Assembly: GCA_947502495.1 (NCBI GenBank)
Contig: CANNAC010000005.1
Location: 62,001 to 126,000 of the forward strand
Origin: an uncultured Flavobacteriaceae bacterium
GTDB taxonomy: Bacteria; Bacteroidota; Bacteroidia; Flavobacteriales; Flavobacteriaceae
Direction of reading: 5' to 3'
Length of the DNA: 64,000 nucleotides
Made by a program: the position numbers and the translations under genes. The notes beneath the pieces were generated by a model. It was not told the DNA's origin. It did no database searches and was given only the letters and a program-made list of their open reading frames with translations. Shown one piece after another: positions 1 through 13,376 of the stretch (position 1 is its first letter; each line of letters begins with the position of its first letter).

Positions 1-277
1 ATTCTGGGGAAGCGTACAATATAATGTCGTTTCAAAACAAGAAAATATTTCTAGAAGTTTTGGGGAAACAGAAACCGACGGATATCAAACTTTAGACGTT
101 CGTTTTGGAGTAAAACCTATGAAGAATATTACATTAGGTGTTGCTGTACTTAATGCTTTAGACGAAGCTTATAACAGCCATTTAAACTTCTCATTTACCA
201 ACCAAGCAGATTTTGGAAGAACACCAATTACAGAACCAGGTCGTAATTTATCCGCATTTTTACAGTATAAATTTTAA
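1..277 (+). CDS. TonB-dependent receptor, C-terminal fragment
   Basis: Only the last 91 residues are inside the window; the reading frame is open from base 2 and stops at 275-277. The fragment has the alternating hydrophobic/polar pattern of outer-membrane beta strands. It contains the motif typical of the end of TonB receptor barrels (V-x-N-A-L-D-E-A-Y near residue 50, then a tail on which R-N-L-S-A-F is followed by a strand) and ends in Phe, the usual last residue of outer-membrane barrels. It would import a siderophore, glycan or other large ligand using TonB energy. The substrate cannot be read from this piece. A strong terminator follows directly. Confidence 0.85.
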   Translation, partial: FWGSVQYNVVSKQENISRSFGETETDGYQTLDVRFGVKPMKNITLGVAVLNALDEAYNSHLNFSFTNQADFGRTPITEPGRNLSAFLQYKF

Positions 278-296
278 TCCAGATTTGGTATAAACA

Positions 297-331
297 AAAA
301 AATAGCGCATTTAAAATGCGCTATTTTTTTT
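297..331. terminator. Bidirectional intrinsic terminator
   Basis: Perfect 10-bp stem (301-310 with 316-325), loop TTAAA, flanked by an A tract on the left and a T tract on the right, so it works in both directions. It lies between the convergent receptor gene and the small membrane protein gene. Confidence 0.85.
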
Positions 332-354
332 ATAATTAAATGTTTTAAATAAAA

Positions 355-504
355 CTATCTTTCTTTAGGCTCTTCTTTATCTCTGTCGTTATTAGACATA
401 GATTTTACTAAAAAAGCAACTAGAGCTAGACAAACTAATCCAAAAATAGCGATCATAATTACGCCGTTATTCCAGTTCGCTAATGCAATGCTTTGAGATA
501 TCAT
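355..504 (-). CDS. Small single-pass membrane protein (49 aa)
   Basis: ATG at 502-504, TAG at 355-357. The product starts MISQSIALANWNNG, has one hydrophobic helix (about residues 15-34) and a very charged tail (NNDRDKEEPKER). It resembles the small one-helix proteins often left unannotated in flavobacterial genomes. I do not recognise a named family. It is followed by a terminator, which supports a real transcription unit. Function unknown; a role as a small subunit or regulator of a membrane complex would be a guess. Confidence 0.6.
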   Translation of the reverse strand: MISQSIALANWNNGVIMIAIFGLVCLALVAFLVKSMSNNDRDKEEPKER

Positions 505-663
505 AAAAATAGGTGTTAGTGTTTTTAAAGTATAAAAATAATATTTTTTTATATTTATAAATATGACTTTTATCAGCTAAAAAGAAGCATTCCTATTTTT
601 GTGTTTTCGAACTTTTTATCTAATAGATATAAGATATACCGCATTTTACATGAAATAATTCTT

Positions 664-1266
664 TTAATAAACGTTGGTTATAATATTCTTTTTCTGAATG
701 ATAAAAAACAATTCTTTGTCTTGTCTTGATGTAATAGAATTGTAAGAAGCTTCCATTATTTTAGTATCAAAATAATGCTTAAAATACTCTATGTATTCCA
801 TTTTACAACCTCCAAAAGGTGGATGCGTTTTATTTAAAGGCACATTAAAAAGCAGGCCTACCACTTTACCATTGTCATGTAACATTTCAAATGCTTTTGC
901 TGCATAAGCTGCTCTTAAATTAGGATCTATAGCACAAAAAAAAGTTTGCTCCATAATCAAATCAAAAGTCATATCAACATCAAAAAAATTCTTTTGGATA
1001 AGATGTGAAGTAGGAAAAGAAGGCACTCTAGATTTTATATTATCGAGTGCTGTTCTAGATAAATCTACTACATACACATTTTTAAAACCTTTATTATGAA
1101 GATATTCTGCTTCATAACTATTCCCGCCTCCTGGAATTAGAATTTTAAGCTCTTTATTGGTTAACTGATTGATATAGTTTTTTAATGGCGGAGAAACTTC
1201 GCCCAAATCCCAACCAATATCACTGGTTTTATATCTATGATCCCAAAAACCTTCGGATAAATCCAT
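664..1266 (-). CDS. TPMT-family SAM-dependent thiol methyltransferase
   Basis: A 200-residue class I methyltransferase of the thiopurine S-methyltransferase family. Visible features are the N-terminal F-W-D-x-R-Y and D-I-G-W-D motif typical of the family, the SAM-binding loop I-P-G-G-G-N-S-Y-E (about 44-52), an acidic strand end V-V-D-L-S (about 67-71) and the aromatic stretch after it. The family methylates thiols, selenols or sulfide with S-adenosylmethionine in the cytoplasm. The start codon overlaps the stop of the thioredoxin gene by one base, so the two are translationally coupled at the end of the sulfur operon. Methylation of sulfide or of a low-molecular-weight thiol as a detoxification step is inferred from context only. 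The exact substrate is unknown. Confidence 0.8.
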   Translation of the reverse strand: MDLSEGFWDHRYKTSDIGWDLGEVSPPLKNYINQLTNKELKILIPGGGNSYEAEYLHNKGFKNVYVVDLSRTALDNIKSRVPSFPTSHLIQKNFFDVDMTFDLIMEQTFFCAIDPNLRAAYAAKAFEMLHDNGKVVGLLFNVPLNKTHPPFGGCKMEYIEYFKHYFDTKIMEASYNSITSRQDKELFFIIQKKNIITNVY

Positions 1267-1562
1267 TAATAAGGTGTTGTAATTACATTTATTAATTCAT
1301 CTTTTTGAAGCATTCCCGACTGTCTCCAAACTTGCTTTCCGTTTTTAAACAATAGCATAGTTGGCACACCTCTAACTTGGTATTTTGCAGCAAGGGCTTG
1401 ATTTTTATCCACATCAATCTTAATAATAGATACTCTATCTTTTAAATTATCTTTAACCTCTTTTAAAATAGGACTCATCATTTTACATGGTCCACACCAC
1501 TCTGCATAAAAATCTACTAATACAGGAGTTTCTTGATTTATTAATTCTGAAAATTTACTCAT
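1266..1562 (-). CDS. trxA: Thioredoxin
   Basis: A 98-residue single-domain thioredoxin without a signal peptide, so cytoplasmic. The active site W-C-G-P-C is at residues 22-26, followed by K-M-M; the cis-proline loop G-V-P-T is near residue 66. Length and motif order fit a classical thioredoxin rather than a TlpA-type protein. It sits between the cytochrome and methyltransferase genes of the sulfur operon. In that setting it would reduce protein or glutathione-type persulfides and disulfides (inference). Paralogues elsewhere in the genome are likely, so the gene symbol is used only for the family. Confidence 0.9.
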   Translation of the reverse strand: MSKFSELINQETPVLVDFYAEWCGPCKMMSPILKEVKDNLKDRVSIIKIDVDKNQALAAKYQVRGVPTMLLFKNGKQVWRQSGMLQKDELINVITTPY

Positions 1563-1574
1563 AACGGACTTATT

Positions 1575-2594
1575 TTATTTGTCGAAAGTTATACTCCAAA
1601 TACCTCTAACCTCATTAACAACATATCCTGTAGCTTTATCTTGAGGATACAAACTAGCAAGTTTACTCACTGTTGGTTTTTTTATATCTTGATCTGGTTT
1701 CCCATGACATTGTAAACACATTGCATTTGTTGTTATTGGATAATACACGTGTACTTTATTGTCTAACACATCTACAATTGGTTCTGGTTCTTTACTATTT
1801 TTTATATCGTTTTTAAAAGAATTAATATACGCTAATTCTTTTGTATTTGCTAGATTATTTTGGTTTCTAGGTTTATCGGAAACACGTTTTATAATTGCAT
1901 GATGTACTACAGACATGCTATCTGTTAAGGGATATGCTTTTTCATTGCAAAAAGCTAATGCTTCTAATGTTCCTTTTTTTTGGATAGTTCCCATTAGGTT
2001 TTTCCCTAAAACCGCTTTTGTTGTCAATGCGTATTTTAAACCACGTTCTGCATAGCTTAATGTATCCAAAGTAGCGTTGGCTTGTTGCTTTTGCATGCCT
2101 TTTCCATTGCCCATACCTTTTCCTTTACCCATTCCATTACCTTGCCCTTTGTGCATGCCTTTTTCTTCATTAAAATGGGCTTCAAACCATGCTGGTTGTT
2201 CGATATCAAAATCGAACATATAGTCTGCAATTTGAGTAATCGTTTTCTCTGGAAAAGGCTGTTTTGGCATTACCCCAAAACGTTTTACTGCTCCAAACAT
2301 TTTAGCATCTTCTGCATTTGGGTTTTTAATCCAAGCTTGCATATCTGCAATAAATTGTTGTTTGGTAGTACCTTCCTGAATATAATGCTTTTTAATGGCA
2401 ATCATAGGAGGACCAATACGATCTTCTTGACTTGCTGTTGGACTATGGCATGTATAGCAATTGGTTTCCAATAGCTTTTTTCCAGGATGGGTATTGGATT
2501 CCATTTTTTGTTCTAAAGCGGTATATTCTTTTTTGGAATTATTACAGCTAAAAATCAACGTTAAAAAGACCATGCATACTATTACATTTTTCAT
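1575..2594 (-). CDS. Di-haem cytochrome c lipoprotein with DUF3365-like C-terminal domain
   Basis: 339 residues. The N terminus is a lipoprotein signal peptide with the acylated Cys at 17 (L-I-F-S-C). A class I cytochrome c domain follows, with the haem motif C-Y-T-C-H at 46-50 and a methionine-rich region (M-P near 109) that can supply the axial ligand. Residues about 145-171 are a Gly/Met/Lys/His-rich linker. The C-terminal domain (about 175-339) has a second haem motif, C-L-Q-C-H at 293-297, and matches the Tll0287-like/DUF3365 layout. It would act in the periplasm as an electron carrier or haem redox sensor. Its place among persulfide enzymes suggests that it passes electrons from sulfur oxidation, but this is inference. 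Confidence 0.8.
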   Translation of the reverse strand: MKNVIVCMVFLTLIFSCNNSKKEYTALEQKMESNTHPGKKLLETNCYTCHSPTASQEDRIGPPMIAIKKHYIQEGTTKQQFIADMQAWIKNPNAEDAKMFGAVKRFGVMPKQPFPEKTITQIADYMFDFDIEQPAWFEAHFNEEKGMHKGQGNGMGKGKGMGNGKGMQKQQANATLDTLSYAERGLKYALTTKAVLGKNLMGTIQKKGTLEALAFCNEKAYPLTDSMSVVHHAIIKRVSDKPRNQNNLANTKELAYINSFKNDIKNSKEPEPIVDVLDNKVHVYYPITTNAMCLQCHGKPDQDIKKPTVSKLASLYPQDKATGYVVNEVRGIWSITFDK

Positions 2595-2605
2595 AATAAT
2601 TTATT

Positions 2606-2875
2606 TTATGTGGAAAGTTTCCCTGTTGCACAACTAACAAAAGATTTTGCTTTAGATACTATGTTATTATTGTCATCTACGGAAGGATAACCTAAAGTTT
2701 TAAGCTTGTCTTTTACTGCAAAAGCGTCTGCTTCATTTGTATATTTAAAGGAAACTTTACTTTCCTCTACATCTATATTTATATCTGAAATATTTTCAAT
2801 TTCTGAAAGCTTTGTAGTAATAGTGTGTGCACAACCACCACATTTTAAGTTTTGTACTAGTATGGATGTTTTCAT
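2606..2875 (-). CDS. Heavy-metal-associated (HMA) domain protein
   Basis: 89 residues with the metal-binding motif C-G-G-C at 12-15 in the beta1-alpha1 loop of a ferredoxin-like HMA fold (residues about 1-68). A short tail carries one further Cys near residue 82. No signal peptide is visible. Such proteins bind Cu(I), Zn or Hg as chaperones. Here it lies 11 nt upstream of the cytochrome c gene in a sulfur operon. It could therefore handle copper, or act through its thiols as a persulfide carrier. The 37 bp before its start codon are nearly identical to those before the persulfide dioxygenase gene. Confidence 0.8.
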   Translation of the reverse strand: MKTSILVQNLKCGGCAHTITTKLSEIENISDINIDVEESKVSFKYTNEADAFAVKDKLKTLGYPSVDDNNNIVSKAKSFVSCATGKLST

Positions 2876-3000
2876 TTTTTAATTCTATTAAATTTTGGTA
2901 AAAATGTGTTCGCCAAAAAGCTCGATTCATTTTTATTTTTTATTTTTTATTTTGGTAAAATGTGTTCGCCATGAAGGAACTGTTCCTTTTTAATTCTATT
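2876..3000. repeat. Repeated leader segments between HMA and rhodanese genes
   Basis: Bases 2876-2912 match 4896-4932 (the leader of the persulfide dioxygenase) at 34 of 37 positions. A second, shorter copy of part of the unit (GGTAAAATGTGTTCGCC) is at 2954-2970, and TTTTTAATTCTATT recurs at 2987-3000, overlapping the rhodanese stop codon. The segment therefore looks like a partial tandem duplication of a leader sequence. No -7 element is evident here. Confidence 0.7.
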
Positions 3001-3355
3001 TGTAGTTTAAAAAACCTCCTTTTAAATCATAGATTTCAATAAACCCCAATTCTACTAACCTTTTGGATGCTTTATTACTTCTACTTCCGCTTCTGCAATA
3101 CACATAAACAGCTTGATCCTTATCTAGTTTATTGAATTCGAAAGCAAATTTATCGGAATAAAAATCTATATTTTCAGCTCCAGTAATATGTCCGGATTGA
3201 AATTCTTTAGGAGTCCTAACATCGATTAATTGTACGTTATTATTTTCTGTTTGTGCTTTAAATTCTTCCGAAGAAAGCATTTTAACAACATTACGATCTA
3301 AACTATTTGAACCTAATAAAGTTGTTAAAAATGTGATGATTATTATGTATTTCAT
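2996..3355 (-). CDS. Exported single-domain rhodanese
   Basis: 119 residues: a short hydrophobic signal (about 1-16), then one rhodanese domain with the D-V-R-T-P-x-E-F motif (about 45-52) and G-H-I-x-G-A. The active-site loop is C-R-S-G-S-R, with the catalytic Cys at 87. Rhodaneses move sulfane sulfur through a Cys-persulfide. Export would place this one in the periplasm or on the membrane. It is the first gene of the downstream half of the sulfur locus and has its own operator/promoter at 3374-3417. Confidence 0.85.
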   Translation of the reverse strand: MKYIIIITFLTTLLGSNSLDRNVVKMLSSEEFKAQTENNNVQLIDVRTPKEFQSGHITGAENIDFYSDKFAFEFNKLDKDQAVYVYCRSGSRSNKASKRLVELGFIEIYDLKGGFLNYK

Positions 3356-3373
3356 GCATGGCTTTATTTACCA

Positions 3374-3417
3374 TAAATATAATCAATAAAACATAAATTA
3401 TAAGTAACCTTTGTTAC
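3374..3417 (-). promoter_or_regulatory. Rhodanese promoter with GTAAC-N4-GTTAC operator
   Basis: The palindrome GTAAC-CTTT-GTTAC lies at 3404-3417, followed by ATA. Twenty-two nt downstream (minus strand) is TATATTTA at 3374-3381, one base off the flavobacterial -7 element TAnnTTTG. The layout is the same as at the other two sites of this locus, centring the palindrome near -41. It is the predicted site of the Crp/Fnr protein encoded at 5859-6491. Confidence 0.65.
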
Positions 3418-3420
3418 ATA

Positions 3421-3458
3421 GAAAAGCGCGTATTACATTGCTGTAATACGCGCTTTTC
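3421..3458 (-). terminator. Intrinsic terminator after persulfide dioxygenase gene
   Basis: Perfect 17-bp inverted repeat (3421-3437 with 3442-3458) around a 4-nt loop, GC-rich in the middle and ending in a CTTTTC arm. It lies 22 nt after the stop codon of the dioxygenase gene and before the rhodanese promoter, separating the two transcription units. Confidence 0.8.
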
Positions 3459-3479
3459 ACTAACTAAAAAATGATCTTT

Positions 3480-4895
3480 TTATTTTAATGTACTCGGACA
3501 AACAAAGTCCGTTCTTGGTATATCTGTTTTTTTAATAGCACCATAACCACCAGCAACATCGATTAAGTTATGAATACCTCTACTTTTTAAAATAGAAGCG
3601 GCAATTACGGATCTATAACCACCAGCACAGTGAATATAGAAAGGTTTATTTTCTGGAAACTCACTTAAATGGCTATTAATTGAATCTAGCGCAGTATGCT
3701 TTGCTCCGTCAATATGTTCTGCAAGGAATTCGCCATCTTTTCTAACATCAAAAATAACATCTTTATTATCTGGATAACGCTTTTCCAATTCTTCGGCAGA
3801 GATAGAAGTTAAAGAATCGTATTCCATACCGTCTTTTTTCCAAGCTTCAAAACTACCATCTAGATAACCAATAACCTGATCAAAACCAACACGTGAAAGT
3901 CTTGTAATTACTTCTTCTTCTCTGCCCTTTGGAGCAACTAATAAAATTGGCTGACTTACATCTGCTATTAAAGCGCCAACCCAAGGTGCAAATCCTCCAT
4001 CAATACCTATAAAAATAGAACGCGGAATATGTCCTTTTATAAATTCGGATTGATGACGAACATCTAAAACAATAGCTTCGGTTTCATTAGCAGCCGTTTC
4101 AAAAGCTTTTGGTGTTAATGGTTTTTGTGATTTTATCATTACTTTATCAAAACTTTCATACCCTTCAATATTCATCATTACGTTTTGAGGAAAATAGGCT
4201 GGTGGTTCGGATAAACCATCTAAAAGTTCGGTAATAAATTCCGCTTTAGTCATATCTGCACGTAAAGCATAATTCACCTTTTTCTGATTGCCTAAAGTAT
4301 CTGTAGTTTCTTTACTCATGTTTTTCCCACAAGCAGATCCTGCACCATGCGCAGGGTAAACAATAATATCATCAGATAGCGTCATTATTTTATTTCTTAA
4401 AGAATCAAATAAATAGCCAGCTAGCATTTCTTGTGTTAAATTGGAAGCAATCTTTTGTGCTAAATCGGGCCTACCAACATCTCCAATAAAAAGCGTGTCT
4501 CCGGTAACAATACCGTGTTCTTTTCCGTTTTCATCTATAAGCAAATAGGTGGTGCTTTCCATGGTATGTCCTGGTGTATGGATTACTTTAATTTTGTAAT
4601 CTCCAACTTCAAAAACCTGGCCATCGGTAGCTATTATAGCATCATAAGAAGGTTTTGCTGTAGGACCAAATACTATTTGCGCTCCAGATTTGGCTTTTAA
4701 ATCTAGGTGACCGGAAACAAAATCTGCATGAAAATGTGTTTCAAATATATATTTGATTTTTGCTTCGTCCTTTTTGGCTCTATCGATATATGGTTGTACT
4801 TCTCTTAACGGATCTATTATAGCAGCTTCGCCGTTACTTTCAATATAGTAAGCGGCATGTGCTAAACAACCGGTATAAATTTGTTTGATGTTCAT
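3480..4895 (-). CDS. Persulfide dioxygenase-rhodanese fusion (MBL fold)
   Basis: 471 residues, cytoplasmic. The N-terminal metallo-beta-lactamase domain (about 1-240) shows the ETHE1-type iron ligands: T-H-F-H-A-D at 53-58, H-T-P-G-H at 106-110, T-G-D at 131-133 and P-A-H at 181-183. Two rhodanese domains follow. The first (about 255-355) has no cysteine in its active-site loop (A-P-K-G-R-E) and is probably structural. The second (about 365-460) has C-A-G-G-Y-R with Cys423. The family oxidises glutathione or other persulfides to sulfite, and the rhodanese part then forms thiosulfate or supplies persulfide. The gene has its own operator/promoter upstream and a terminator downstream, so it forms a single-gene unit. 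Its leader can fold into a hairpin. Confidence 0.88.
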   Translation of the reverse strand: MNIKQIYTGCLAHAAYYIESNGEAAIIDPLREVQPYIDRAKKDEAKIKYIFETHFHADFVSGHLDLKAKSGAQIVFGPTAKPSYDAIIATDGQVFEVGDYKIKVIHTPGHTMESTTYLLIDENGKEHGIVTGDTLFIGDVGRPDLAQKIASNLTQEMLAGYLFDSLRNKIMTLSDDIIVYPAHGAGSACGKNMSKETTDTLGNQKKVNYALRADMTKAEFITELLDGLSEPPAYFPQNVMMNIEGYESFDKVMIKSQKPLTPKAFETAANETEAIVLDVRHQSEFIKGHIPRSIFIGIDGGFAPWVGALIADVSQPILLVAPKGREEEVITRLSRVGFDQVIGYLDGSFEAWKKDGMEYDSLTSISAEELEKRYPDNKDVIFDVRKDGEFLAEHIDGAKHTALDSINSHLSEFPENKPFYIHCAGGYRSVIAASILKSRGIHNLIDVAGGYGAIKKTDIPRTDFVCPSTLK

Positions 4896-4954
4896 TTTTT
4901 AATTCTATTTAATTTCGGTAAAAATGTGATCGTATTCGATGCAACACATTTTAC
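4896..4954 (-). promoter_or_regulatory. Structured 5' leader of persulfide dioxygenase gene
   Basis: Read on the minus strand, GTAAAATGTG (4945-4954) pairs with CACATTTTTAC (4918-4928), and the inner ATCG (4937-4940) pairs with CGAT (4929-4932), leaving a TTGC bulge and a 4-nt loop. The part next to the start codon (4896-4932) is the 37-bp segment shared with the HMA gene leader. No Shine-Dalgarno sequence is present. The hairpin lies downstream of the predicted transcription start (about 4963-4965), so it would be in the mRNA. Confidence 0.5.
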
Positions 4955-4968
4955 TTATTCTATTTCTT

Positions 4969-5012
4969 CAAATTTACGAATGTTTTAATTCTTTTTCTGC
5001 AACACAAGTTAC
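4969..5012 (-). promoter_or_regulatory. Persulfide dioxygenase promoter with operator
   Basis: The -7 element TAAATTTG (4969-4976, minus strand) matches TAnnTTTG exactly. Twenty-two nt upstream lies the palindrome GCAAC-ACAA-GTTAC (4999-5012), followed by ATA; it has one mismatch from GTAAC-N4-GTTAC. The palindrome is centred near -41 and covers the place of a -33 box, as in class II Crp/Fnr activation. Predicted target of the regulator at 5859-6491. Confidence 0.7.
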
Positions 5013-5016
5013 ATAC

Positions 5017-5811
5017 TTAAAAAACCAATTCCTTTAAAACGATATAAATAGACATCGCTAAAACAAACCAGCCAAAACTCTTTTTCAGTTTTTTACTAGA
5101 TATAAATTTAGAAAAATAACCACCTACTAAAATCCCTATAATAGTTATAAAAGAGAAGGTTAATAAAAAGGTCCATTCTATATCTAATACTTGTACATCG
5201 CCATAAAAACCAATTAACGAATTTATAGCAACTATTATTAAAGACGTACCCACGGCTTTTTTCATATCTAAACCTGCCCAAAGCACTAAAGCTGGCACGT
5301 ATAGAAATCCGCCACCTGCTCCAATAAGACCTGTAATAATACCGATAATAACACCTTGAATAAAAGTTTTATAATAGGGTTGCGTACTAGTACTAATTTG
5401 CTGTTTCTTTTTGGATTTAATCATCGAGAAAGCAGCTAAAAACATGATTATTGCGAAAAAAACCATGATTGCCATTCCCTTTGTTAAAGAAAAATCTCCA
5501 ATAGTAAAAAGTGTTTCTGGAATTGCTGGGACAAGAAATCTTCTTGAAATATATACCGCTAAAAACGATGGAAAACAGAATGCTAATCCGGTTTTAAAAT
5601 CTACTAACCCTTTTTGATGCTTTTGAATTACACCAACTAACGAGGAAGAACCTACTACAAATAAAGAATATGCTGTAGCTATTACAGGATTATATCCTAA
5701 AAAATACACCAATAATGGCACGGTAAGAATGGATCCTCCACCACCTATTAGGCCTAATACTGCTCCAATTAAGAAAGCACTTAAATACGTTATAATTTGT
5801 TGTAAATCCAT
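5017..5811 (-). CDS. TauE/SafE family sulfur-compound exporter
   Basis: 264 residues with about eight hydrophobic helices and the two inverted family motifs: G-A-V-L-G-L-I-G-G-G-G near residue 20 and its mirror G-L-I-G-A-G-G-G-F near 160. TauE/SafE proteins export sulfite, sulfoacetate or related anions across the inner membrane, and some carry thiosulfate. Next to a persulfide dioxygenase, which makes sulfite, export of sulfite or thiosulfate is the simplest reading. The gene is preceded by its own operator (5849-5862) and -7 element. No bacterial rhodanese fusion is present on this member. Confidence 0.82.
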   Translation of the reverse strand: MDLQQIITYLSAFLIGAVLGLIGGGGSILTVPLLVYFLGYNPVIATAYSLFVVGSSSLVGVIQKHQKGLVDFKTGLAFCFPSFLAVYISRRFLVPAIPETLFTIGDFSLTKGMAIMVFFAIIMFLAAFSMIKSKKKQQISTSTQPYYKTFIQGVIIGIITGLIGAGGGFLYVPALVLWAGLDMKKAVGTSLIIVAINSLIGFYGDVQVLDIEWTFLLTFSFITIIGILVGGYFSKFISSKKLKKSFGWFVLAMSIYIVLKELVF

Positions 5812-5819
5812 ATGAAGAG

Positions 5820-5862
5820 CAAAGGTAATTTATATAAATTAACAGCGTGTAACTTGAGTTAC
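5820..5862 (-). promoter_or_regulatory. TauE promoter with GTAAC-N4-GTTAC operator
   Basis: TACCTTTG (5820-5827, minus strand) is an exact TAnnTTTG match 9 nt from the start codon. The perfect palindrome GTAAC-TTGA-GTTAC at 5849-5862, followed by ATA, is 21 nt upstream and overlaps the stop codon of the crp gene. There is no TTG at -33, consistent with an activator-dependent promoter. Confidence 0.7.
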
Positions 5863-6491
5863 ATATCTAAAATTTTAATACTATTTCTATGTAGTTCAAT
5901 TTTCCCTGCATTCTCTAATGCTTTAAGTAATCTTGAAATTACCACTCTTGAAGTATGTAAATCTCTAGCTATTTTTTGATGGGTTACAATAATAACCTCA
6001 TTATGATTCACCATCGCTTTATCTTTTAAATATTTAAACAAGCGCTCATCCATTTTTAAAAAAGCAATACTATCAATAGCTTCAAATAATTCTGTCATCC
6101 TGTTATGGTAGCTTTGCAACACAAATTGTTGCCAGGTTTTATATTTACTCAACCATTCTTCCATTTTTGCAATAGGGATCATTATGAGCTTGGTATCTGT
6201 TTCGGCAATAGCTCTAATTTCACTTTTAGAATTACCCAAACAGCAAGATAGTGTCATAGCGCAAGTATCTCCTTGTTCTATAAAATACAAAAGAAGTTCA
6301 TCGCCATCTTTATCTTCTCGCAAAATCTTAATGGCTCCGCTTATTAAAAGAGGCATAGATTTTATATAATCTCCAATTTCTATTAGTTTAAAATCTTCCG
6401 GAATATCTTTATACGTCCCTACACTATTAATTTCTTGAAGTAAAGCATCTTCAAATAAATAACCATAATGCTGTTGTAATTCGTCTAACAT
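5859..6491 (-). CDS. Crp/Fnr-family regulator of the sulfur locus
   Basis: 210 residues. The N-terminal cyclic-nucleotide-binding-like beta roll (about 20-125) lacks the cAMP-binding R-x-S pair of CRP. It carries an unusual cysteine group, C-A-M-T-L-S-C-C, at residues 77, 83 and 84. A long dimer helix (about 120-145) is followed by a winged helix-turn-helix with recognition segment T-S-R-V-V-I-S-R (about 180-187). It is a cytoplasmic transcription factor; family members of this cys-containing type lie next to sulfurtransferase genes in Bacteroidota. Three matching palindromes in front of the neighbouring genes make it their likely activator. The cysteines could sense persulfide or redox state (inference). 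A -7 element (TAACTTTG, 6511-6518) lies before its own start. Confidence 0.85.
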   Translation of the reverse strand: MLDELQQHYGYLFEDALLQEINSVGTYKDIPEDFKLIEIGDYIKSMPLLISGAIKILREDKDGDELLLYFIEQGDTCAMTLSCCLGNSKSEIRAIAETDTKLIMIPIAKMEEWLSKYKTWQQFVLQSYHNRMTELFEAIDSIAFLKMDERLFKYLKDKAMVNHNEVIIVTHQKIARDLHTSRVVISRLLKALENAGKIELHRNSIKILDM

Positions 6492-6685
6492 AATACCATT
6501 TTGTTCTTCACAAAGTTATATAAATATCTTTGGTGTCCGTTACTATTACCATATTATTGAAGTAACTATATGCCCATTAGCATAAAACCACACACTTACG
6601 GCGTTTTTATTTGCTTTTCATCGATTAGAAATAAAATAAAATTCATAGATACGAAACAAATCATTTATTTTTTTAAAATTGCAAT

Positions 6686-7120
6686 ATGACGAATAATTAC
6701 TCCATTGATTGCACCCTCTTAATTGATGACGATAAAGTTATCAATTTTTACAACGAAAAAATTGTAAACAGACATAATGATTTTGGACAAGTAACTTCTG
6801 TTAATAGTGGACAAAACGCATTAGATTATTTAAAAGATGCCAAGAATGGATTAATATCAAAACCAGATTTAATATTTCTAGATATTAATATGCCTGCTAT
6901 GAATGGTTGGGAATTTTTAGAAGAATTTAATAAAATTGATCCTAACTTCACGAGTTCTATTAAAGTTATTTTATTGACTACGTCTAATAATCCAGATGAT
7001 TTTGAACGTTCTAAAACAATTAAAATAATTTCAGATTTTATTAATAAGCCACTAACCGCAGATATTTTAGACCACGTTAAGCAAAATCATTACATATTAG
7101 CTTCTAGTAAAAAAACATAA
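6686..7120 (+). CDS. Stand-alone response regulator, Rcp1-like
   Basis: 144 residues comprising only a CheY-like receiver domain. The acidic pocket is D-D-D at 14-16, the phospho-acceptor Asp66 is in L-D-I-N-M-P, a Thr/Ser pair near 98-100 ends beta4, and Lys121 is in I-N-K-P-L. There is no output domain. Single-domain regulators with the L-D-I-N-M-P motif belong to the Rcp1 type that works with phytochrome-like kinases of the S-H-D-L-K-E-P-L class. Exactly such a kinase is encoded 2.8 kb downstream, with a TonB receptor between them, so the three are read as one pathway (inference). Confidence 0.88.
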   Translation: MTNNYSIDCTLLIDDDKVINFYNEKIVNRHNDFGQVTSVNSGQNALDYLKDAKNGLISKPDLIFLDINMPAMNGWEFLEEFNKIDPNFTSSIKVILLTTSNNPDDFERSKTIKIISDFINKPLTADILDHVKQNHYILASSKKT

Positions 7121-7200
7121 ATTTTCTCCTTACTTTATAAAGCTTTTTATACTTGAAGTATTTACTTACAAGTAATTATTTTTTCTTAATTTAGTATTGC

Positions 7201-9930
7201 ATGTTAAAACTAAATAATTCATTTACATATCTCCATAAAAGTTCTTTATTTTTCTTGACTATATTACTTTTTACCTTTTCTGCATTCTCGCAGAATAAAG
7301 CAAAAATAACAGGAACGATATCGGATCAATTTGGAAGTCTTCCTGGTGCTAAAATTAGCATTGAAGGCTCTAATACATCTACGACTAGTGATGTAAATGG
7401 AAATTATGTTTTACACATTGAAGAAGGCGATGTTGTTATTCAGGTAGCTTTTATTATGTATAAAACGGCAACCAAATCGGCACACATTAAAGCTGGTGAA
7501 GAAGTGGTTTTTGATTTTATTTTAGAAACTGGTTTTTCTATAGAACAACCTGTTTCATTAGGTTCTAGAGCAAAACCAAGCTCCCTTTTAAAAACAACAG
7601 CACCTGTAGATATTATTTCTCCGCAAGATATTACGAACTCGCCGCAAATAGAGTTAAGCCACATATTACATTATTTAGTACCTTCTTTTCATTCTACAAA
7701 CCAAACCGTATCTGATGGAACAGATCATATAGATCCTGCAACCTTAAGAGGTCTTGGTCCAGATCAAATATTAGTATTAGTAAATGGTAAACGTAGACAT
7801 AACAGCTCCCTTTTAAATGTGAATGGAACCGTTGGAAAAGGAACGGTAGGTACCGATTTTAATGCAATTCCTGTAGCATCTATTGAAAGAATAGAGATTT
7901 TAAGAGATGGAGCAACCTCACAGTATGGATCGGATGCTATTGCAGGTGTAATTAATATTATACTAAAAAAACAAACCCAGTCTATAGATGTACAAGGACG
8001 CGCAGAACAAACTACGGCAGGAGATGGTTTTACCACTTACTTTTCGGCTAATTTTGGTTTTGAAGTAGGAAAAAAAGGATTTATAAACATTACAGGAGAA
8101 TATAGAAATAGAGAAGCATACAATAGAGCTGGTGATTATAATGGTTTAGTATATTCTAATGATCCAGATGAAGATGCAGACTTAATTGCTGCAAATAATT
8201 TTTATGACCAAAATGATTATTCGGGAAAACGAGTCATGGAAATTGGTAATGCTTCCACACAAAATCTTGCACTTTCGTTTAATGGTGAATTTCCTATTTC
8301 TAATAATTCTTTATTTTATTTTCATGGAGGAAGAAATTATAGAGAAGGAACATCAAAAGGTTTTTATAGATTTCCAAATGAAGTAGATCGTGTTGTTCTC
8401 GAACTATTTCCAGATGGTTTTTCTCCCGAAATATTAACAGACATACAAGATGATGCAATTTCATTAGGTTTTAGAGGTGAGAAAAATGAATGGAATCTAG
8501 ATTTTAGTCATACTATTGGTATTAACACTTTAGATTACACGGTTAATAATTCTAATAATGCCTCCTTAGGTATTACGTCTCCTCGTACTTTTTATTCTGG
8601 TGGTTTTTCTTATAAACAAAACACTTCAAACCTAGATGTCTCTAGAGCATATGATTGGTTAGATGGCGTAAATATTGCTTTTGGTGCAGAATTACGTGTA
8701 GAAAATTATAACATTATTGCTGGTGAAGAAGATTCTTATCTGGATGGAGACAACACCTATATAGATAGTGATGGTATAGAACAACAAAGTATTGCTGGCG
8801 CTCAAGTATTTCCAGGTATTCAGCCCGAAAATGAATTAAGCCGATTTAGAACCAACAGTTCTGGATATATAGATATAGAAGTAAATACATCTAAAGAAAC
8901 ATTACTAAAAGCTACTGCTAGATATGAAGCTTATAACGATTTTGGAGCCCAATTTATTTGGAAACTTTCAGGAAGATATAAAATAACCGAAGATTTAAAT
9001 TTTAGGTTAGGTTTATCTACAGGATTTAGAGCGCCATCGCTACACCAAGTATATTTTCAAAGTATAAGTACACAGTTTATTGATGGAGAAATTGTACAAG
9101 TAGGAACTTTTAATAATGAAAGCGCCGTTGCTAAAGAAGCTTTTCAAATTAAAAACTTAAAACCAGAACTTTCCAACCACTTTAACGCAGGTTTCTCTGG
9201 TAAACTAGCTAAAAACTTATCCTTCACAGCAGATTATTACAATATCAAAATTAAAGATAGAATTGTCCTTTCTGGACGATTTGATGAAGGCTACGAAGCA
9301 ACCCTAGAACCATTTAATGTTGGTGCTGCTCAATTCTTCTCTAATGCAATAGATACAAAAACCATTGGTTTAGATGTGGCTGTACATTATAAAAACAAAA
9401 TTGGTAATGGTGAGTTAAACGCATCTTTAGCAGGGAATTTAAAACAAACCGAAGTCATCGCTCTTAATAAAGTTTCCGATTTTTTAGAAGGTCAAGAAAG
9501 CACTTTATTCAACCGTGAGGATATAGCGCGAGTAGAATTTGGGCAACCAAATTACAAAGTAAATTCTATCATATCCTATCATTTTGATAAATACAGAATA
9601 CAATTAGGAAATACCTTTTTTGGAAAAGTAAAATATGTAAACGCAGAAGATGGTGTTCAAGAAAACTGGATATTAAATGAATTTTCTGGAGAACTAGAAA
9701 CTAGAGACCAAACATTTTCTTCTAAATTAATAACAGATTTAGCGCTATCTTACACCTTTGAAAAAATATGCAATATCACACTTGGAGGAACAAATATCTT
9801 TAATGTGTATCCAGATAAACACACACACTCTGCCAATACCGAAAATGGTAATTTTATTTATAGCAGAAGAGTGCAGCAATTTGGTGTTAAAGGCTCTAAT
9901 TATTATGTTAGATTTTTATTAAAACTATGA
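7201..9930 (+). CDS. TonB-dependent receptor linked to a YfiR-type kinase
   Basis: 909 residues. The signal peptide is about 1-31 (ends F-S-Q). A CarboxypepD_reg-like domain (about 35-115) is typical of Bacteroidota TonB receptors. The plug domain (about 125-255) holds the motifs L-R-G-L-G-P-D-Q-I-L-V-L-V-N-G-K-R and I-E-R-I-E-I-L-R-D-G-A-T-S-Q-Y-G-S. The beta barrel fills the rest. The plug's V-N-G-K-R-R motif is common in receptors for siderophores and small ligands. No SusD partner is adjacent, so a glycan system is unlikely. The stop codon overlaps the kinase start by 4 nt (ATGA), giving translational coupling. The ligand is unknown; it may be a signal as well as a nutrient. Confidence 0.9.
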   Translation: MLKLNNSFTYLHKSSLFFLTILLFTFSAFSQNKAKITGTISDQFGSLPGAKISIEGSNTSTTSDVNGNYVLHIEEGDVVIQVAFIMYKTATKSAHIKAGEEVVFDFILETGFSIEQPVSLGSRAKPSSLLKTTAPVDIISPQDITNSPQIELSHILHYLVPSFHSTNQTVSDGTDHIDPATLRGLGPDQILVLVNGKRRHNSSLLNVNGTVGKGTVGTDFNAIPVASIERIEILRDGATSQYGSDAIAGVINIILKKQTQSIDVQGRAEQTTAGDGFTTYFSANFGFEVGKKGFINITGEYRNREAYNRAGDYNGLVYSNDPDEDADLIAANNFYDQNDYSGKRVMEIGNASTQNLALSFNGEFPISNNSLFYFHGGRNYREGTSKGFYRFPNEVDRVVLELFPDGFSPEILTDIQDDAISLGFRGEKNEWNLDFSHTIGINTLDYTVNNSNNASLGITSPRTFYSGGFSYKQNTSNLDVSRAYDWLDGVNIAFGAELRVENYNIIAGEEDSYLDGDNTYIDSDGIEQQSIAGAQVFPGIQPENELSRFRTNSSGYIDIEVNTSKETLLKATARYEAYNDFGAQFIWKLSGRYKITEDLNFRLGLSTGFRAPSLHQVYFQSISTQFIDGEIVQVGTFNNESAVAKEAFQIKNLKPELSNHFNAGFSGKLAKNLSFTADYYNIKIKDRIVLSGRFDEGYEATLEPFNVGAAQFFSNAIDTKTIGLDVAVHYKNKIGNGELNASLAGNLKQTEVIALNKVSDFLEGQESTLFNREDIARVEFGQPNYKVNSIISYHFDKYRIQLGNTFFGKVKYVNAEDGVQENWILNEFSGELETRDQTFSSKLITDLALSYTFEKICNITLGGTNIFNVYPDKHTHSANTENGNFIYSRRVQQFGVKGSNYYVRFLLKL

Positions 9931-11744
9931 TAGTAATTACTACTAAATCTTCTCTACGTTTAAAAGCTACTCTAGCTTTTTTGTTCTTTTGTTTTCTTTT
10001 TAATGCTACTGCACAATCTCAAGAATCTAATAGTGAAGAGATCAAACGTTTACAACGAAGTATCTTTATTTTTAATTTTGTACAACAAGTAAGTTGGTCT
10101 AACCTTGATAATCTTGATCAATTTAAAATTGGAGTTCTTGGTCCCGATAGAACGATTATTGACTTAAAATCTTTATCCTTAAAACGAAGAATTTTTAATA
10201 AACCTGTGCAAGTTGTCAATTTTAATGGTATAAACGACATAGGAAATATTCAAGTGCTCTATGTTAATAATCATTATAATTATGACGTAAACCACATTCT
10301 AAACAAAATAGCAAATAAAAATATTTTACTCATTACAGAAGATTATAACTATAATGCTTCCATGATTAACATGGTTAATGTTGATAATTCTTTTGAATAC
10401 GAAATAAACAGAAATAGCCTAGAGCGAGAAGGTTTTCAAACTGCTGAAAGTTTAGCTAGCCATGCGATAACTTCTTCCCAAAAGTGGAAACTACTTTATA
10501 AAGACGTCAGTAAAAGTTTAAATCAAACAAAAGACACTTCTGCCTTACAAGAAGTCATTATTAAAAATAGTGAAAAAGAAATTCTTGATAAAACAAAAAC
10601 GATTCTAGATAAAAACAATGTAATAGACACTATCTCTGTTAAATTGAATGACCAGAAAAACTGGATAAATCAATTAAATCAGTATAATAAAATACAAAAC
10701 AAACAGATAGAAGATAAAATTGCAATAGAAAAGCAATTAGAGCAAATTATAAATTCACAAATAGATACCTTAAAATCGCAAAGCGAAACGATAAGAGAAA
10801 GTAACGAAAAAATTAAAATTCAGAATGATTTTCTAACTACCTTATATCAAGATATTGAAAAAAAGCAAGGCATTCTAAACGAAAATGATAGTCAAATAAG
10901 CAAACTAAAATTATTTAATTATTTATTAGCAGCATTAGCTTTGTTAACGCTTATTGCATTTTATAGCATCTATAGAATGTACATTTCTAATAAAAAATAC
11001 CTGAAGATATTAAAACAAAAAAGCGCTGTTATTTATAAGCAAACACAAAAATTAGCCTCTCAAAATAAAGAGCTAGAACAATTTGCTTACATCACTAGTC
11101 ATGACCTTAAAGAACCTCTAAATACCATCTCCGGACTAATTGTCTTACTACTCGATGAATACGAAGATAAATTAGATGAAGACGGACAAATGAGTTTAAA
11201 CTTTATTAATGAATCTAGTTTAAGAATGAAATCCCTTATCGATTCCCTTTTAGACTATTCTAGATTAGGAAAAATTAAAGAGTACAACGCCATACATACT
11301 TCCAACTTAATTGAAGCTATAAAAACAGATTTGGGTAGTATGATAAATAAATCTAATGCAAAAATAACCACTAAGCATTTACCAATAATCACTGGTTCGG
11401 ATGTAGAAATACGCTTATTATTTCAAAATTTAATAAGTAACGGTATTAAATTTATAGATCCAAACACTACGCCTAACATAATGATTTCATGCATTAAAAC
11501 CGAAGATGAAGAATTGCATAAATATTGGCAATTTGCGGTCACAGATAATGGTATTGGAATCCCCGAAAATTATCAAGATAGAATCTTTGCTATCTTTCAA
11601 CGATTACATAATAGAGAGAAATACGAAGGAACAGGAATTGGTTTAGCACACTGCAAAAAGATTGTAGAATCGCACGGCGGAAAAATTTGGTTGAAATCTA
11701 AAGAAGGCATCGGAACCACTTTTTATTTTACCATACCAGTGTAA
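9927..11744 (+). CDS. Histidine kinase with periplasmic YfiR domain
   Basis: 605 residues. A signal/anchor segment (about 10-30, ends A-T-A-Q) leads into a YfiR/DUF4154-like periplasmic domain (about 42-190, with F-I-F-N-F-V-Q-Q-V-S-W). A long coiled coil (about 205-325) and one membrane helix (about 330-350) follow. The cytoplasmic part holds a HisKA dimer domain with phospho-acceptor His392 in S-H-D-L-K-E-P-L-N-T, and an ATPase domain with the N box, D-N-G-I-G-I and G-T-G-I-G-L-A motifs. It should autophosphorylate and pass phosphate to a receiver protein; the only one nearby is at 6686-7120. The gene overlaps the TonB receptor gene, so the YfiR domain may read the receptor's state or its ligand. 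Confidence 0.9.
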   Translation: MIVITTKSSLRLKATLAFLFFCFLFNATAQSQESNSEEIKRLQRSIFIFNFVQQVSWSNLDNLDQFKIGVLGPDRTIIDLKSLSLKRRIFNKPVQVVNFNGINDIGNIQVLYVNNHYNYDVNHILNKIANKNILLITEDYNYNASMINMVNVDNSFEYEINRNSLEREGFQTAESLASHAITSSQKWKLLYKDVSKSLNQTKDTSALQEVIIKNSEKEILDKTKTILDKNNVIDTISVKLNDQKNWINQLNQYNKIQNKQIEDKIAIEKQLEQIINSQIDTLKSQSETIRESNEKIKIQNDFLTTLYQDIEKKQGILNENDSQISKLKLFNYLLAALALLTLIAFYSIYRMYISNKKYLKILKQKSAVIYKQTQKLASQNKELEQFAYITSHDLKEPLNTISGLIVLLLDEYEDKLDEDGQMSLNFINESSLRMKSLIDSLLDYSRLGKIKEYNAIHTSNLIEAIKTDLGSMINKSNAKITTKHLPIITGSDVEIRLLFQNLISNGIKFIDPNTTPNIMISCIKTEDEELHKYWQFAVTDNGIGIPENYQDRIFAIFQRLHNREKYEGTGIGLAHCKKIVESHGGKIWLKSKEGIGTTFYFTIPV

Positions 11745-11750
11745 CAAACA

Positions 11751-12542
11751 TTACTTTGGGGGCTGTTGAAAACAAACGGAAAGCATCGCATATAATTCTG
11801 GATGCTTTTGTTTAAAAAGCTTTGGTCTTTCAAAAAAATACTCTGAGGCTACTGCAAAAAATTCAATTTCGCTTGTCCCTCCATATTTTCTAATATCCGA
11901 TGCATCGTTATTAATAGCTTCCATTTCTTTGTGCATTAATCCCAACCAAGGCGCAATATATTCTTTACCAAGAAAAAACGAAGGAATACCATCGGTTTCC
12001 CCATCCATTTTATCTAATAAATGTACAAACTCATGCACTGGTGTATTGTGTTTATCGGTTTTGTTATTAAAGGCTAATCGGATTGCCTTTTTAGAGAGGA
12101 TCATTTGCTTTTCAAAACGACCTGTTCCCACCATTCCAAGAATTTGTTTATTTTCATCTTTATCTGAAAACTGTAAATCCGCATTAAAACTATCGGGATA
12201 AACAATAATACCCGTTAAGTTATTATAGCTCCAATTGGAAAACCCAAATACAGGAATAACACCACTAGAAGCAATTAGTATTTTATCTAATTCTTCTATT
12301 TCTGTATCTACACCTTCTATATGTATTTCACTTAAAAAAAGCATGATTCGTTTTCTAAATATTGCTCGATTCTCGGGAGTTAGGTTTTTATAAAACAGCA
12401 CTTTTTCCATTAAAATAGCATGCCAATGTTTTGGCGTTTCTTGTACCTTTTTAGCTTTCATAATATAAAAAGCATAGCAGACAAAAATGACAAAGAGTAT
12501 AAAAATCAGTGTGTAGATCATGTTCTTAAATTGTATTTGCAA
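11751..12542 (-). CDS. mtfA: MtfA-family zinc peptidase
   Basis: 263 residues. An N-terminal membrane helix (about 8-28) is followed by the MtfA (peptidase family M90) domain with the zinc site H-E-F-V-H-L-L-D at 170-177 and the further family motif K-M-D-G-E-T-D-G at 178-185. The E. coli relative is a cytoplasmic aminopeptidase that binds the sugar repressor Mlc; the membrane anchor here is a common flavobacterial variation. It is convergent with the kinase gene with 6 nt between them. Its substrate in this organism is unknown. Confidence 0.85.
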   Translation of the reverse strand: MQIQFKNMIYTLIFILFVIFVCYAFYIMKAKKVQETPKHWHAILMEKVLFYKNLTPENRAIFRKRIMLFLSEIHIEGVDTEIEELDKILIASSGVIPVFGFSNWSYNNLTGIIVYPDSFNADLQFSDKDENKQILGMVGTGRFEKQMILSKKAIRLAFNNKTDKHNTPVHEFVHLLDKMDGETDGIPSFFLGKEYIAPWLGLMHKEMEAINNDASDIRKYGGTSEIEFFAVASEYFFERPKLFKQKHPELYAMLSVCFQQPPK

Positions 12543-12604
12543 AATATTCTATTTTTTAGAGAATAAAAAAATATACGATCCCTTATCTTCGTAAAAAAAA
12601 CAAA

Positions 12605-13261
12605 ATGTTAAAAGCGGTTTTATTTGATATGGATGGTGTTATTGTAGACACAGAACCACTACACCATAAAGCGTATCACAACATGTTTAACGACTACAAC
12701 ATACATGTAGATAAAGCTTTATACGAAAGCCTTACCGGACAGTCGACAAAAAATGTTTGTAAAAAATTATGTAATCATTTTAATTTGAACGTAAACGCAA
12801 ATGAACTTGTGGATAGAAAAAGATATCATTTTAAAGATCTTTTTTTTAACGATCCTAGCCTAAAATTGATAGATGGTGTGCATGACATTATTAAAGAGTA
12901 TCATAAAAACGGAATCACCTTAGTACTTGCGTCCTCTGCTTCTATGCTTACTATTAACAATGTGTTTACTAAATTTGATTTAGACCAATATTTTATTGCT
13001 AAATTAAGTGGAGCAGATTTAAAAGCATCTAAACCGCATCCCGAAATATTTATAAATGCTGCAGAAGCTTCCGGATTTAACAGAAAGGAATGTTTGGTAA
13101 TTGAAGACTCTACTAGCGGCATTAAAGCAGCCTTTGATGCGGGAATTTATTGTATTGGTTATGATAGCTTAAACTCTAAAAACCAAGACTATTCTTTAGC
13201 AAACAAAGTAGTATCCAATTTTAATGAGATACCTTTTGAGAAGGTTAAGAATTTAGTGTAG
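12605..13261 (+). CDS. HAD phosphatase, beta-phosphoglucomutase-like
   Basis: 218 residues. Motif I is D-M-D-G-V at 8-12, with the nucleophile Asp8 and acid/base Asp10. Motif II is near S-S-A-S (about 103-106). The Lys of motif III lies in S-K-P-H-P-E (about 140), and motif IV is E-D-S-T-S-G-I (about 159-165). A helical cap sits between motifs I and II. It belongs to the PGMB/GPH-like subgroup that dephosphorylates or isomerises small sugar phosphates in the cytoplasm. The T-G-Q-S-T motif in the cap fits a phosphatase more than a true mutase. A partial -7 match (TATCTTCG, 12584-12591) lies just upstream. The exact substrate is unknown. Confidence 0.82.
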   Translation: MLKAVLFDMDGVIVDTEPLHHKAYHNMFNDYNIHVDKALYESLTGQSTKNVCKKLCNHFNLNVNANELVDRKRYHFKDLFFNDPSLKLIDGVHDIIKEYHKNGITLVLASSASMLTINNVFTKFDLDQYFIAKLSGADLKASKPHPEIFINAAEASGFNRKECLVIEDSTSGIKAAFDAGIYCIGYDSLNSKNQDYSLANKVVSNFNEIPFEKVKNLV

Positions 13262-13318
13262 AACGATACAATCATTTATGTATTTGCTTCTAAAAAAGGA
13301 ATGCATTCTCTATAAGTC

Positions 13319-13359
13319 AAGCATTATAATTTTATTTAACCTTAAAAATCATAATGCTT
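13319..13359. terminator. Possible bidirectional hairpin between convergent genes
   Basis: AAGCATTAT (13319-13327) pairs with ATAATGCTT (13351-13359), and AT-rich flanks extend the stem imperfectly. It is the only hairpin between the HAD gene and the convergent nuclease-fold gene. The T tract is weak. Confidence 0.4.
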
Positions 13360-13376
13360 AACAACAGATAATTCTA

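Follow-up and report, generated by a model that had tools for sequence, protein, structure and literature searches.

The stretch of DNA analysed here (the window) comprises 64,000 nucleotides (nt) from an uncultured Flavobacteriaceae bacterium, positions 62,001 to 126,000 of contig CANNAC010000005.1 in assembly GCA_947502495.1. Our subject is a gene for a Crp/Fnr-type regulator at 5859-6491 and three palindromic sequences beside it, which we propose to be its operators. The genes concerned are all on the minus strand: a rhodanese gene heads a run that continues with genes for an HMA (heavy-metal-associated) domain protein, a cytochrome c, a thioredoxin and a TPMT-like methyltransferase, and upstream of this run lie the genes for a persulfide dioxygenase (PDO), a TauE-type transporter and the regulator itself. 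Among the scanned neighbors the Crp/Fnr protein is the sole DNA-binding regulator, in agreement with the initial annotation of this sequence; the protein encoded at 6686-7120 has a receiver domain only. The main features are as follows.

2996-3355, minus strand: single-domain rhodanese, first gene of a presumed operon (PF00581, 75.9 bits)
3374-3381, minus strand: -7 box of the rhodanese promoter, TATATTTA, 22 nt from the operator; predicted +1 at 3369 (A)
3404-3417, minus strand: operator of the rhodanese operon, GTAACAAAGGTTAC, an exact palindrome with its center at predicted -41.5
3480-4895, minus strand: PDO-type protein with a metallo-beta-lactamase domain and two rhodanese domains (PF00753; PF00581 twice)
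4969-4976, minus strand: -7 box of the PDO promoter, TAAATTTG, 22 nt from the operator; predicted +1 at 4964 (A)
4999-5012, minus strand: PDO operator, GTAACTTGTGTTGC, with one mismatch and its center at predicted -41.5
5017-5811, minus strand: TauE/SafE-type transporter (PF01925, 147.9 bits)
5820-5827, minus strand: -7 box of the tauE promoter, TACCTTTG; predicted +1 near 5815
5849-5862, minus strand: tauE operator, GTAACTCAAGTTAC, exact, with a spacing of 21 nt and its center at predicted -40.5
5859-6491, minus strand: Crp/Fnr regulator (PF00027, PF13545) with Cys77, Cys83 and Cys84 in the cyclic nucleotide (cNMP) cassette and the recognition helix TSRVVISR (R182, V183, R187)

The initial annotation had reported a palindrome followed by ATA in front of the rhodanese, PDO and TauE genes, at distances of 22, 22 and 21 nt from a -7 box, and the sequence bears this out. 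The palindrome GTAAC-N4-GTTAC is exact at 3404-3417 and 5849-5862 and has one mismatch (GCAAC) at 4999-5012, and on the plus strand ATA comes directly after each of the three. They are situated upstream of the minus-strand starts of the rhodanese gene (ATG at 3355), the PDO gene (4895) and the TauE gene (5811), at 22, 22 and 21 nt respectively from the -7 boxes, and the stop codon of the regulator gene falls inside the tauE operator. Allowing up to one mismatch, the window contains 8 matches to the palindrome, compared to a mean of 1.84 in 100 shuffled sequences (largest value 6). Three of the eight are the sites above, and among the other five, the match at 6791-6804 falls within the receiver-domain gene. 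A search of the bacterium's own genome for the exact pattern gave 10 occurrences, versus 4 for a control in which the pattern was reversed; three of the 10 are inside genes and seven are intergenic, if one includes the TauE site, although it overlaps the 3' end of the regulator gene.

We examined the promoter geometry by aligning 157 site-gene pairs (of 167) from the window and its relatives, with sites 25-200 nt upstream of the gene, on the palindrome alone. The palindrome extends in this alignment to TnTGTAAC-N4-GTTACAnA, and a second conserved block, TA-N2-TTTG, appears at a single place, starting 22 nt after the palindrome. In 115 of the 157 sites a -7 box with a score of 5 or more out of 6 starts at 22 nt, and in 15 it starts at 21 nt; every other offset between 12 and 35 accounts for 0 to 3 sites. 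Among 4345 random upstream placements, 3.9% score this well at any of three offsets. By gene class, a box at 21-23 nt was found for 29/31 TauE, 25/25 PDO and 15/15 rhodanese sites. In Flavobacterium psychrophilum this box lies at -12 to -5, according to the passages of PMC9723704 that describe it, and because the box starts 22 nt downstream of the palindrome, the center of the palindrome is placed at -41.5, the class II position (an activator site centered at -41.5 over the upstream promoter element). The inferred start is alignment position 49, where A is the commonest base (59%), which gives predicted starts of 3369, 4964 and 5815 in the window and palindrome centers at -41.5, -41.5 and -40.5. 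The proposal that the equal spacing exceeds chance and puts the palindrome near -41 thus holds, as judged by the distance to the -7 box. The absence of a TTG at -33, which had been pointed out for TauE, is real but is not special to that promoter, since no conserved TTG is found near -33 over the 157 aligned sites. The predicted tauE start is about 4 nt ahead of the ATG (5811-5827), so this mRNA may be almost leaderless; predicted leaders of 2-3 nt occur at 5 of 31 TauE sites, the window's among them.

The palindrome is conserved upstream of orthologous genes in other flavobacteria, with the same fixed spacing to the -7 box, so that a refuting outcome named in the initial annotation, lack of conservation, did not occur. 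We searched 149 relatives and found regulator orthologs (E ≤ 1e-20) in 106 of them. A first set of 61 loci consisted of the window and 60 ortholog places from the top of the list, up to 15 kb each, with second copies left out in most genomes. We counted genes having a site with at most one mismatch within 200 nt upstream, used the reversed pattern as a control, excluded genes cut by contig ends or with less than 150 nt upstream, and tallied homologs below 40% identity separately. A site precedes 30/35 TauE, 26/37 PDO and 16/21 rhodanese genes, and 77/632 other genes, many of which are sulfur genes beyond the reference set. The reversed pattern gave 0, 2, 0 and 6 genes in these four classes. 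The homologs below 40% identity had sites in 3/7 PDO-like, 0/2 rhodanese-like and 0/2 Crp-like cases, and the counts for the remaining genes of the locus were 2/18 for HMA, 4/20 for cytochrome c, 1/16 for thioredoxin, 0/12 for TPMT and 2/61 for the regulator itself. At 44 of the 61 loci there is a site within 150 nt past the stop codon of the regulator, compared to 1/61 for the reversed pattern.

For a second set we took the 80 best of 589 named loci, from Lacinutrix, Olleya, Psychroserpens, Mariniflexile, Maribacter, Polaribacter, Tenacibaculum, Zobellia and other genera. It is not independent of the first, as at least six of its contigs are equal in length to contigs there. It gave sites upstream of 43/51 TauE, 48/57 PDO, 15/31 rhodanese and 42/392 other genes, and an exact site was present in 77/80 loci (2/80 for the reversed pattern). 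An unbiased ranking of all 5-bp gapped palindromes with spacers of 0-10 in 139 target upstream regions placed GTAAC-N4-GTTAC first with 96 occurrences; the next had 15. Across the phylum, a match to the regulator alignment (E 1e-40) was found in 133/395 genomes, and a draw of 28 such loci of 3.6 kb contained a site with a -7 box in 19. Raw genome-wide counts of the pattern are in many genomes not above the reversed control, and we did not use them as evidence.

The initial annotation held that the three operators define a regulon. They do belong to one, but it is larger than three promoters. In the own genome, where we considered matches with 0-2 mismatches and name those ahead of genes, a site with a -7 box also precedes genes for an outer-membrane efflux protein with an HlyD-type adaptor (contig C5, 50.3 kb), a 485-residue Pyr_redox_2 flavoprotein (C5, 55.4 kb), a peroxiredoxin followed by both cytochrome bd subunits (C5, 59.6 kb), a small protein with an AcrB-type RND pump behind it (C2, 302.5 kb), a DUF983 protein (C7, 41.1 kb) and a second Crp/Fnr protein (C1, 224.8 kb; 224766; loci L031 and L351). 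A stretch of about 18 kb contains the three C5 places together with the promoters of the window. A second rhodanese gene (C7, 127.3 kb) has an exact site with a weaker box. The second Crp/Fnr gene has as neighbors a divergent P-type ATPase gene and genes for a cbb3-type oxidase (COX1-FixO, FixG), an arrangement that suggests that the sulfur regulator sits above a second Crp/Fnr regulator. Sites at C1:282699, C1:780905 and C3:171885 were left out as unconvincing. In relatives, the further genes with a site in front encode a polysulfide-reductase-type NrfD protein (followed by a molybdopterin subunit), a protein resembling sulfite oxidase, a type III SQR-like flavoprotein (216.6 bits, below the cut-off of 525), SulP transporters, peroxiredoxin, subunit I of cytochrome bd and YeeE/YedE pairs (PF04143); sites also lie across a divergent region from HemN. 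The target genes are largely sulfur genes, and cytochrome bd fits a sulfide regulon because it supports sulfide-resistant respiration, going by titles cited in PMC9774590.

If the regulator reads these operators, the two should disappear together. We grouped PDO genes by the regulator status of their genomes and examined 300 nt upstream of each, leaving out the PDO genes of the first set. Sites with at most one mismatch precede 0/26 PDO genes in genomes without an ortholog, 0/14 (12 genomes) in genomes with only a homolog below 40% identity, and 15/40 in genomes with an ortholog; allowing two mismatches but requiring a -7 box, the numbers are 1/26, 2/14 and 24/40. Regulator-free genomes within the own family had 0/10. 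On the regulator-free side this comparison is weighted towards small genomes and distant families, and it excludes G072 and G073 (regulator-free with PDO), G125, G133 and G147 (distant homologs only) and the PDO copies of some regulator-bearing genomes.

The recognition helix provides a further link between protein and operator. In alignment with Escherichia coli CRP, Arg182, Val183 and Arg187 correspond to Arg180, Glu181 and Arg185, and among the PDB sequence matches NtcA has the same Arg-Val...Arg helix. Val183 is present in 80/81 proteins of the named set plus the window, and Glu in one. We examined 40 more distant loci, where the best homolog has Glu183 in 24 and Val183 in 16, for GTNAC-N4-GTNAC with a -7 box, scored per orientation so that a palindrome with a box on each side was counted twice. 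Near Glu183 types there are 10 sites, in 9/24 loci, and all 10 have GTGAC in at least one half, compared to 24/298 near the Val183 types of the two close sets; there, 264/298 have GTAAC in both halves (Glu versus Val, Fisher's exact test P = 1.4e-9, a statistic that ignores relatedness). In an open ranking, the 24 Glu loci had GTGAT-N4-ATCAC (4) and GTGAC-N4-GTCAC (2) as their best palindromes, and the 16 Val loci had GTAAC-N4-GTTAC (3). Residue 183 of the recognition helix thus goes together with the third base of the half-site. The preference of Val types is not absolute, as GTGAC-N4-GTCAC occurs in 4/60 close Val loci. This palindrome with a -7 box at 21-23 nt was seen at L050, L075, L078 and L100 and at the PDO loci L169, L174, L182 and L191, in each case with a regulator that is Val-type or whose helix was left unread; relaxed specificity, or a paralog with Glu, could explain these cases. 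Together, linkage, co-loss and the recognition code point to the 5859-6491 protein as the probable binder, and comparison among genomes establishes, at the level of predicted sites, the operator, its spacing and its pairing with the regulator.

By Pfam the protein belongs to the Crp/Fnr superfamily (PF00027, 35.8 bits, cut-off 27.5; PF13545, 35.4 bits, cut-off 27). An AlphaFold2 model built from 52 sequences (pLDDT 87, pTM 0.63) has the Crp order of elements, and the best 50 Foldseek matches are all Crp/Fnr proteins, led by Thermus CAP (E = 3.1e-14); their modest TM-scores (about 0.46-0.64) are probably due to uncertain domain orientation in the monomer model. Its only cysteines, Cys77, Cys83 and Cys84, are in the loop that matches CRP residues 70-77. 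CRP contacts cAMP through Glu72, Arg82 and Ser83, which correspond here to Met79, Lys89 and Ser90. Because of the cysteines in this loop and the replacement of Glu72 and Arg82 by Met79 and Lys89, ordinary cAMP binding seems unlikely. All three cysteines are kept in 81/81 proteins of the named set plus the window; in the first set, two paralogs included, the numbers are 62/63 for Cys77, 58/63 for Cys83 and 57/63 for Cys84, and distant homologs have Cys77 in 41/41 proteins (40 loci). As the signal we favor, with less assurance than we have for activation, a reactive sulfur species: persulfide or polysulfide, which probably acts on Cys77 together with Cys83/84. It is the most likely candidate at about even chances, and heme-based or redox sensing is a possible alternative. 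At three loci (L093, L097 and L335), regulators beside YeeE/YedE-type genes have Cys77 but have lost Cys83 and Cys84, and they are possibly a separate subfamily. Some distant Val types have C-G-G or C-N-G in place of C-C-C (L375, L377, L381, L382, L384, L386, L387 and L388); most are near thioredoxin, rhodanese, TauE or PDO genes, with a site nearby at L375, L381 and L387.

We think it very likely that the 5859-6491 protein is a class II activator of a sulfide/persulfide defense regulon, working through these operators. A dimeric Crp/Fnr protein would bind TnTGTAAC-N4-GTTACAnA at 41.5 bp upstream of the start, where it would take the place of a -33 element and recruit the housekeeping RNA polymerase to the TAnnTTTG box. 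Arg182 and Arg187 would contact bases as in CRP, and Val183, standing where CRP has Glu, would make the third base of the half-site A, not G, as in NtcA. The genes expected to be switched on are those for PDO, TauE, the rhodanese operon, the pyridine-nucleotide-disulfide-type flavoprotein, and peroxiredoxin with cytochrome bd, and also the RND efflux genes, the DUF983 protein, the second Crp/Fnr protein and perhaps the second rhodanese. The signal, a less certain part of this interpretation, would probably be reactive sulfur that acts on these three cysteines, in the loop where CRP binds cAMP.

Several observations weigh against this interpretation. Operator binding, start sites and expression in the own genome are predictions from sequence, and the relatedness of the genomes inflates all of the counts. 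When three mismatches are allowed, the promoter-type pattern is no more frequent in the own genome (37 forward, 37 reverse) than the control (48 and 38). Of the 61 regulator loci, six are without any site of at most one mismatch in the whole fetched stretch, and 17 are without one in the 150 nt after the regulator; 9/28 phylum-wide loci lack a site with a -7 box, both Glu-helix loci among them. Where the regulator is present, 25/40 PDO genes still have no site with at most one mismatch. In the 40 distant loci, a site was found at only 7/16 Val183 and 7/24 Glu183 loci, and of the 7 sites near distant Val types, only 3 have GTAAC in both halves; another 3 are of other kinds, and the remaining one has GTGAC, in a locus that also has a Glu-type paralog. 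The wider family is often without Cys83 and Cys84 while Cys77 stays, and because part of it has lost these two residues a two-cysteine switch cannot be general. Finally, three of the targets, cytochrome bd, HemN and the Crp/Fnr gene linked to cbb3, would fit equally into a response to low oxygen or nitric oxide (NO).

The last point leads to the alternative that survives best, although we regard it as unlikely: that the protein is a redox, NO or low-oxygen regulator using heme or an iron-sulfur center, and that the sulfur genes are part of a wider respiratory switch. HcpR relatives respond to NO, and Cys77 and Met79 are near the positions of the heme ligands of CooA. Sites lie ahead of the peroxiredoxin-cytochrome bd cluster, ahead of the Crp/Fnr gene beside the cbb3-type oxidase genes, and in divergent regions ahead of HemN-type genes in two relatives, and distant homologs may retain Cys77 alone. 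However, PDO, rhodanese, TauE, SQR-like and YeeE/YedE genes are the most frequent and closest targets, 76/81 orthologs have cysteines only at 77, 83 and 84 and thus no FNR-type set of four, hcp was not found in the own genome and occurs in only 3/149 genomes, and cytochrome bd, to judge from the titles mentioned above, is an oxidase that itself resists sulfide.

An improbable alternative is that the regulator is a repressor that leaves its promoters upon meeting sulfur, as CstR, a repressor, would. SqrR and BigR are likewise described as repressors in the passages of PMC9774590. Against this, site centers at -41.5 and the lack of a conserved TTG at -33 fit class II activation as in NtcA, and a repressor would not need a fixed phase, so we infer activation rather than repression.

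It is more improbable still that a different Crp/Fnr protein of the cell reads the operators. Besides the regulator, four HTH_Crp_2 proteins of the own genome exceed the cut-off, three with Glu and one with Pro at the key position. The Pro protein, the homolog at C4:237954 (helix TSRPTLNI), is the best candidate because HcpR2 also has Pro, and HcpR2 with Pro181 is predicted to bind GTAACnnnnGTTAC (in the parts of PMC1274295 that treat it). But homologs of the C4:237954 type (E 1e-30) are present in 33/149 genomes, and we reject this paralog as the binder: G005 and G006, of the same genus as the window, have kept the sites without it, and G065 and G083 have it, together with only distant homologs of the regulator, and have no PDO site. 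The three proteins with Glu helices we reject on that residue. Chance matches, with an AT-rich palindrome and a loose -7 box lined up by eye, can be dismissed: there are five further near-matches in the window and three exact genome sites inside genes, but conservation, the reversed-pattern controls and the fixed spacing refute chance.

We put forward more tentatively, at somewhat less than even chances, that the regulator is a new kind of reactive-sulfur sensor, whose CX5CC cassette replaces the cNMP phosphate-binding cassette, with cysteine persulfidation doing the job of cAMP, and that this protein has a natural Val/Glu switch and acts as the master activator of sulfide tolerance. If so, this activator would cover sulfide-resistant cytochrome bd and have a second Crp/Fnr regulator below it in Flavobacteriaceae, with variants in other Bacteroidota, and the switch would move the operator from GTAAC towards GTGAC.

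The other genes of the presumed rhodanese operon, in which the order around the HMA gene is alike in many relatives, are the following.

2606-2875, minus strand: HMA domain protein (PF00403)
1575-2594, minus strand: cytochrome c with a Tll0287-like domain (PF11845, PF00034)
1266-1562, minus strand: thioredoxin (TIGR01068, over the cut-off)
664-1266, minus strand: TPMT-like methyltransferase, last gene of the operon (PF05724)

The PDO gene and the rhodanese operator are separated by a perfect 16-bp hairpin at 3421-3458 (GAAAAGCGCGTATTAC...GTAATACGCGCTTTTC, found by eye), which is 3 bp away from the operator; it has no T run and may insulate the PDO and rhodanese units. The leader of the HMA gene contains a repeat, GGCGAACACATTTTTACCAAAAT and a near copy, at 2892-2914 and about 2953-2985, and a related stretch (by eye) precedes the PDO gene at about 4899-4930. 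Among relatives, the repeat has two copies in L044, of the same genus, and one with two mismatches in L045, and it was not found in L041, L042, L043 or L046. An Rfam scan of positions 1-14000 gave no match, and a hairpin in the PDO leader was not significant (z = -1.19).

To our knowledge, no regulator has been assigned to the sulfide/persulfide response of Bacteroidota. FisR, CstR and SqrR/BigR control sulfur-oxidation genes, and CstR is of the CsoR-like family. FisR is a Fis-type activator and SqrR/BigR are ArsR proteins, whereas the regulator described here is a Crp/Fnr protein on a Bacteroidota promoter. FisR, with three conserved cysteines, and SqrR, with two, respond to reactive sulfur, as stated in passages of a 2022 review (PMC9774590). 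Regulators that sense persulfide are marked by reactive cysteines joined through di- or polysulfide links, and for the protein here the conservation of its cysteines is what the sequences show. The review's sensing passages name CstR, SqrR, BigR, PigS and FisR, sensors that belong to other protein families, and Crp appears in the review in two reference titles only. Among the matches listed in our literature search, none dealt with control of this regulon by a Crp/Fnr protein, which is weak evidence of absence as the spelling CRP/FNR could be missed.

Within the superfamily, FNR has four cysteines for its 4Fe-4S cluster, three of them N-terminal, and a Glu in the recognition helix; the regulator here has three cysteines (77, 83 and 84) and Val183. 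With E. coli CRP it has in common the fold, the domain order, the equivalents of Arg180 and Arg185 and the class II position, but Glu181 of CRP is replaced by Val183, and it scores 55.3 against a cut-off of 266 in the CRP equivalog model. The best sequence match in the PDB, EUBREC_1222 of Eubacterium rectale (3dv8, titled a putative regulator), has cysteines at the places of Cys77 and Cys83 but, unlike the regulator here, an Arg-Glu recognition helix. For the HcpR2 branch, Rodionov and colleagues (PMC1274295, in the relevant part) predicted the motif GTAACnnnnGTTAC and tied it to a change of Glu181. The operators here match GTAACnnnnGTTAC, but HcpR2 has Pro181 where our protein has Val183, and HcpR2 controls hcp, for which there is no prismane match in the own genome and one in each of only 3/149 genomes; we reject an identity with HcpR proper on both grounds.

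A close parallel is cyanobacterial NtcA, which is alike in its Crp/Fnr fold family and in its Arg-Val...Arg helix. GTAAC-N4-GTTAC satisfies the NtcA box, GTAN8TAC, and with the predicted start sites it lies where that box does, at about -41.5 in class II promoters (PMC3898017, in the portion describing the box). NtcA responds to 2-oxoglutarate and nitrogen, whereas the regulator here has a cysteine cassette and sits on sulfur genes, and in the NtcA equivalog model it scores 46 against a cut-off of 244.95 bits. The recognition segment, which the initial annotation singled out as different from both CRP and FNR, does differ from them, but it matches that of NtcA, and the motif had been predicted before for HcpR2, so the DNA specificity is not new. 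The fold, the class II mechanism and the motif (the 2005 prediction for HcpR2, and NtcA-like) are known already; the assignment of the regulon appears to be new. It offers one regulator, one operator and one list of targets readable from many genomes, a candidate master regulator, and a natural test of the Crp/Fnr recognition code in which Val or Glu at one residue goes with one operator base while the targets are alike.

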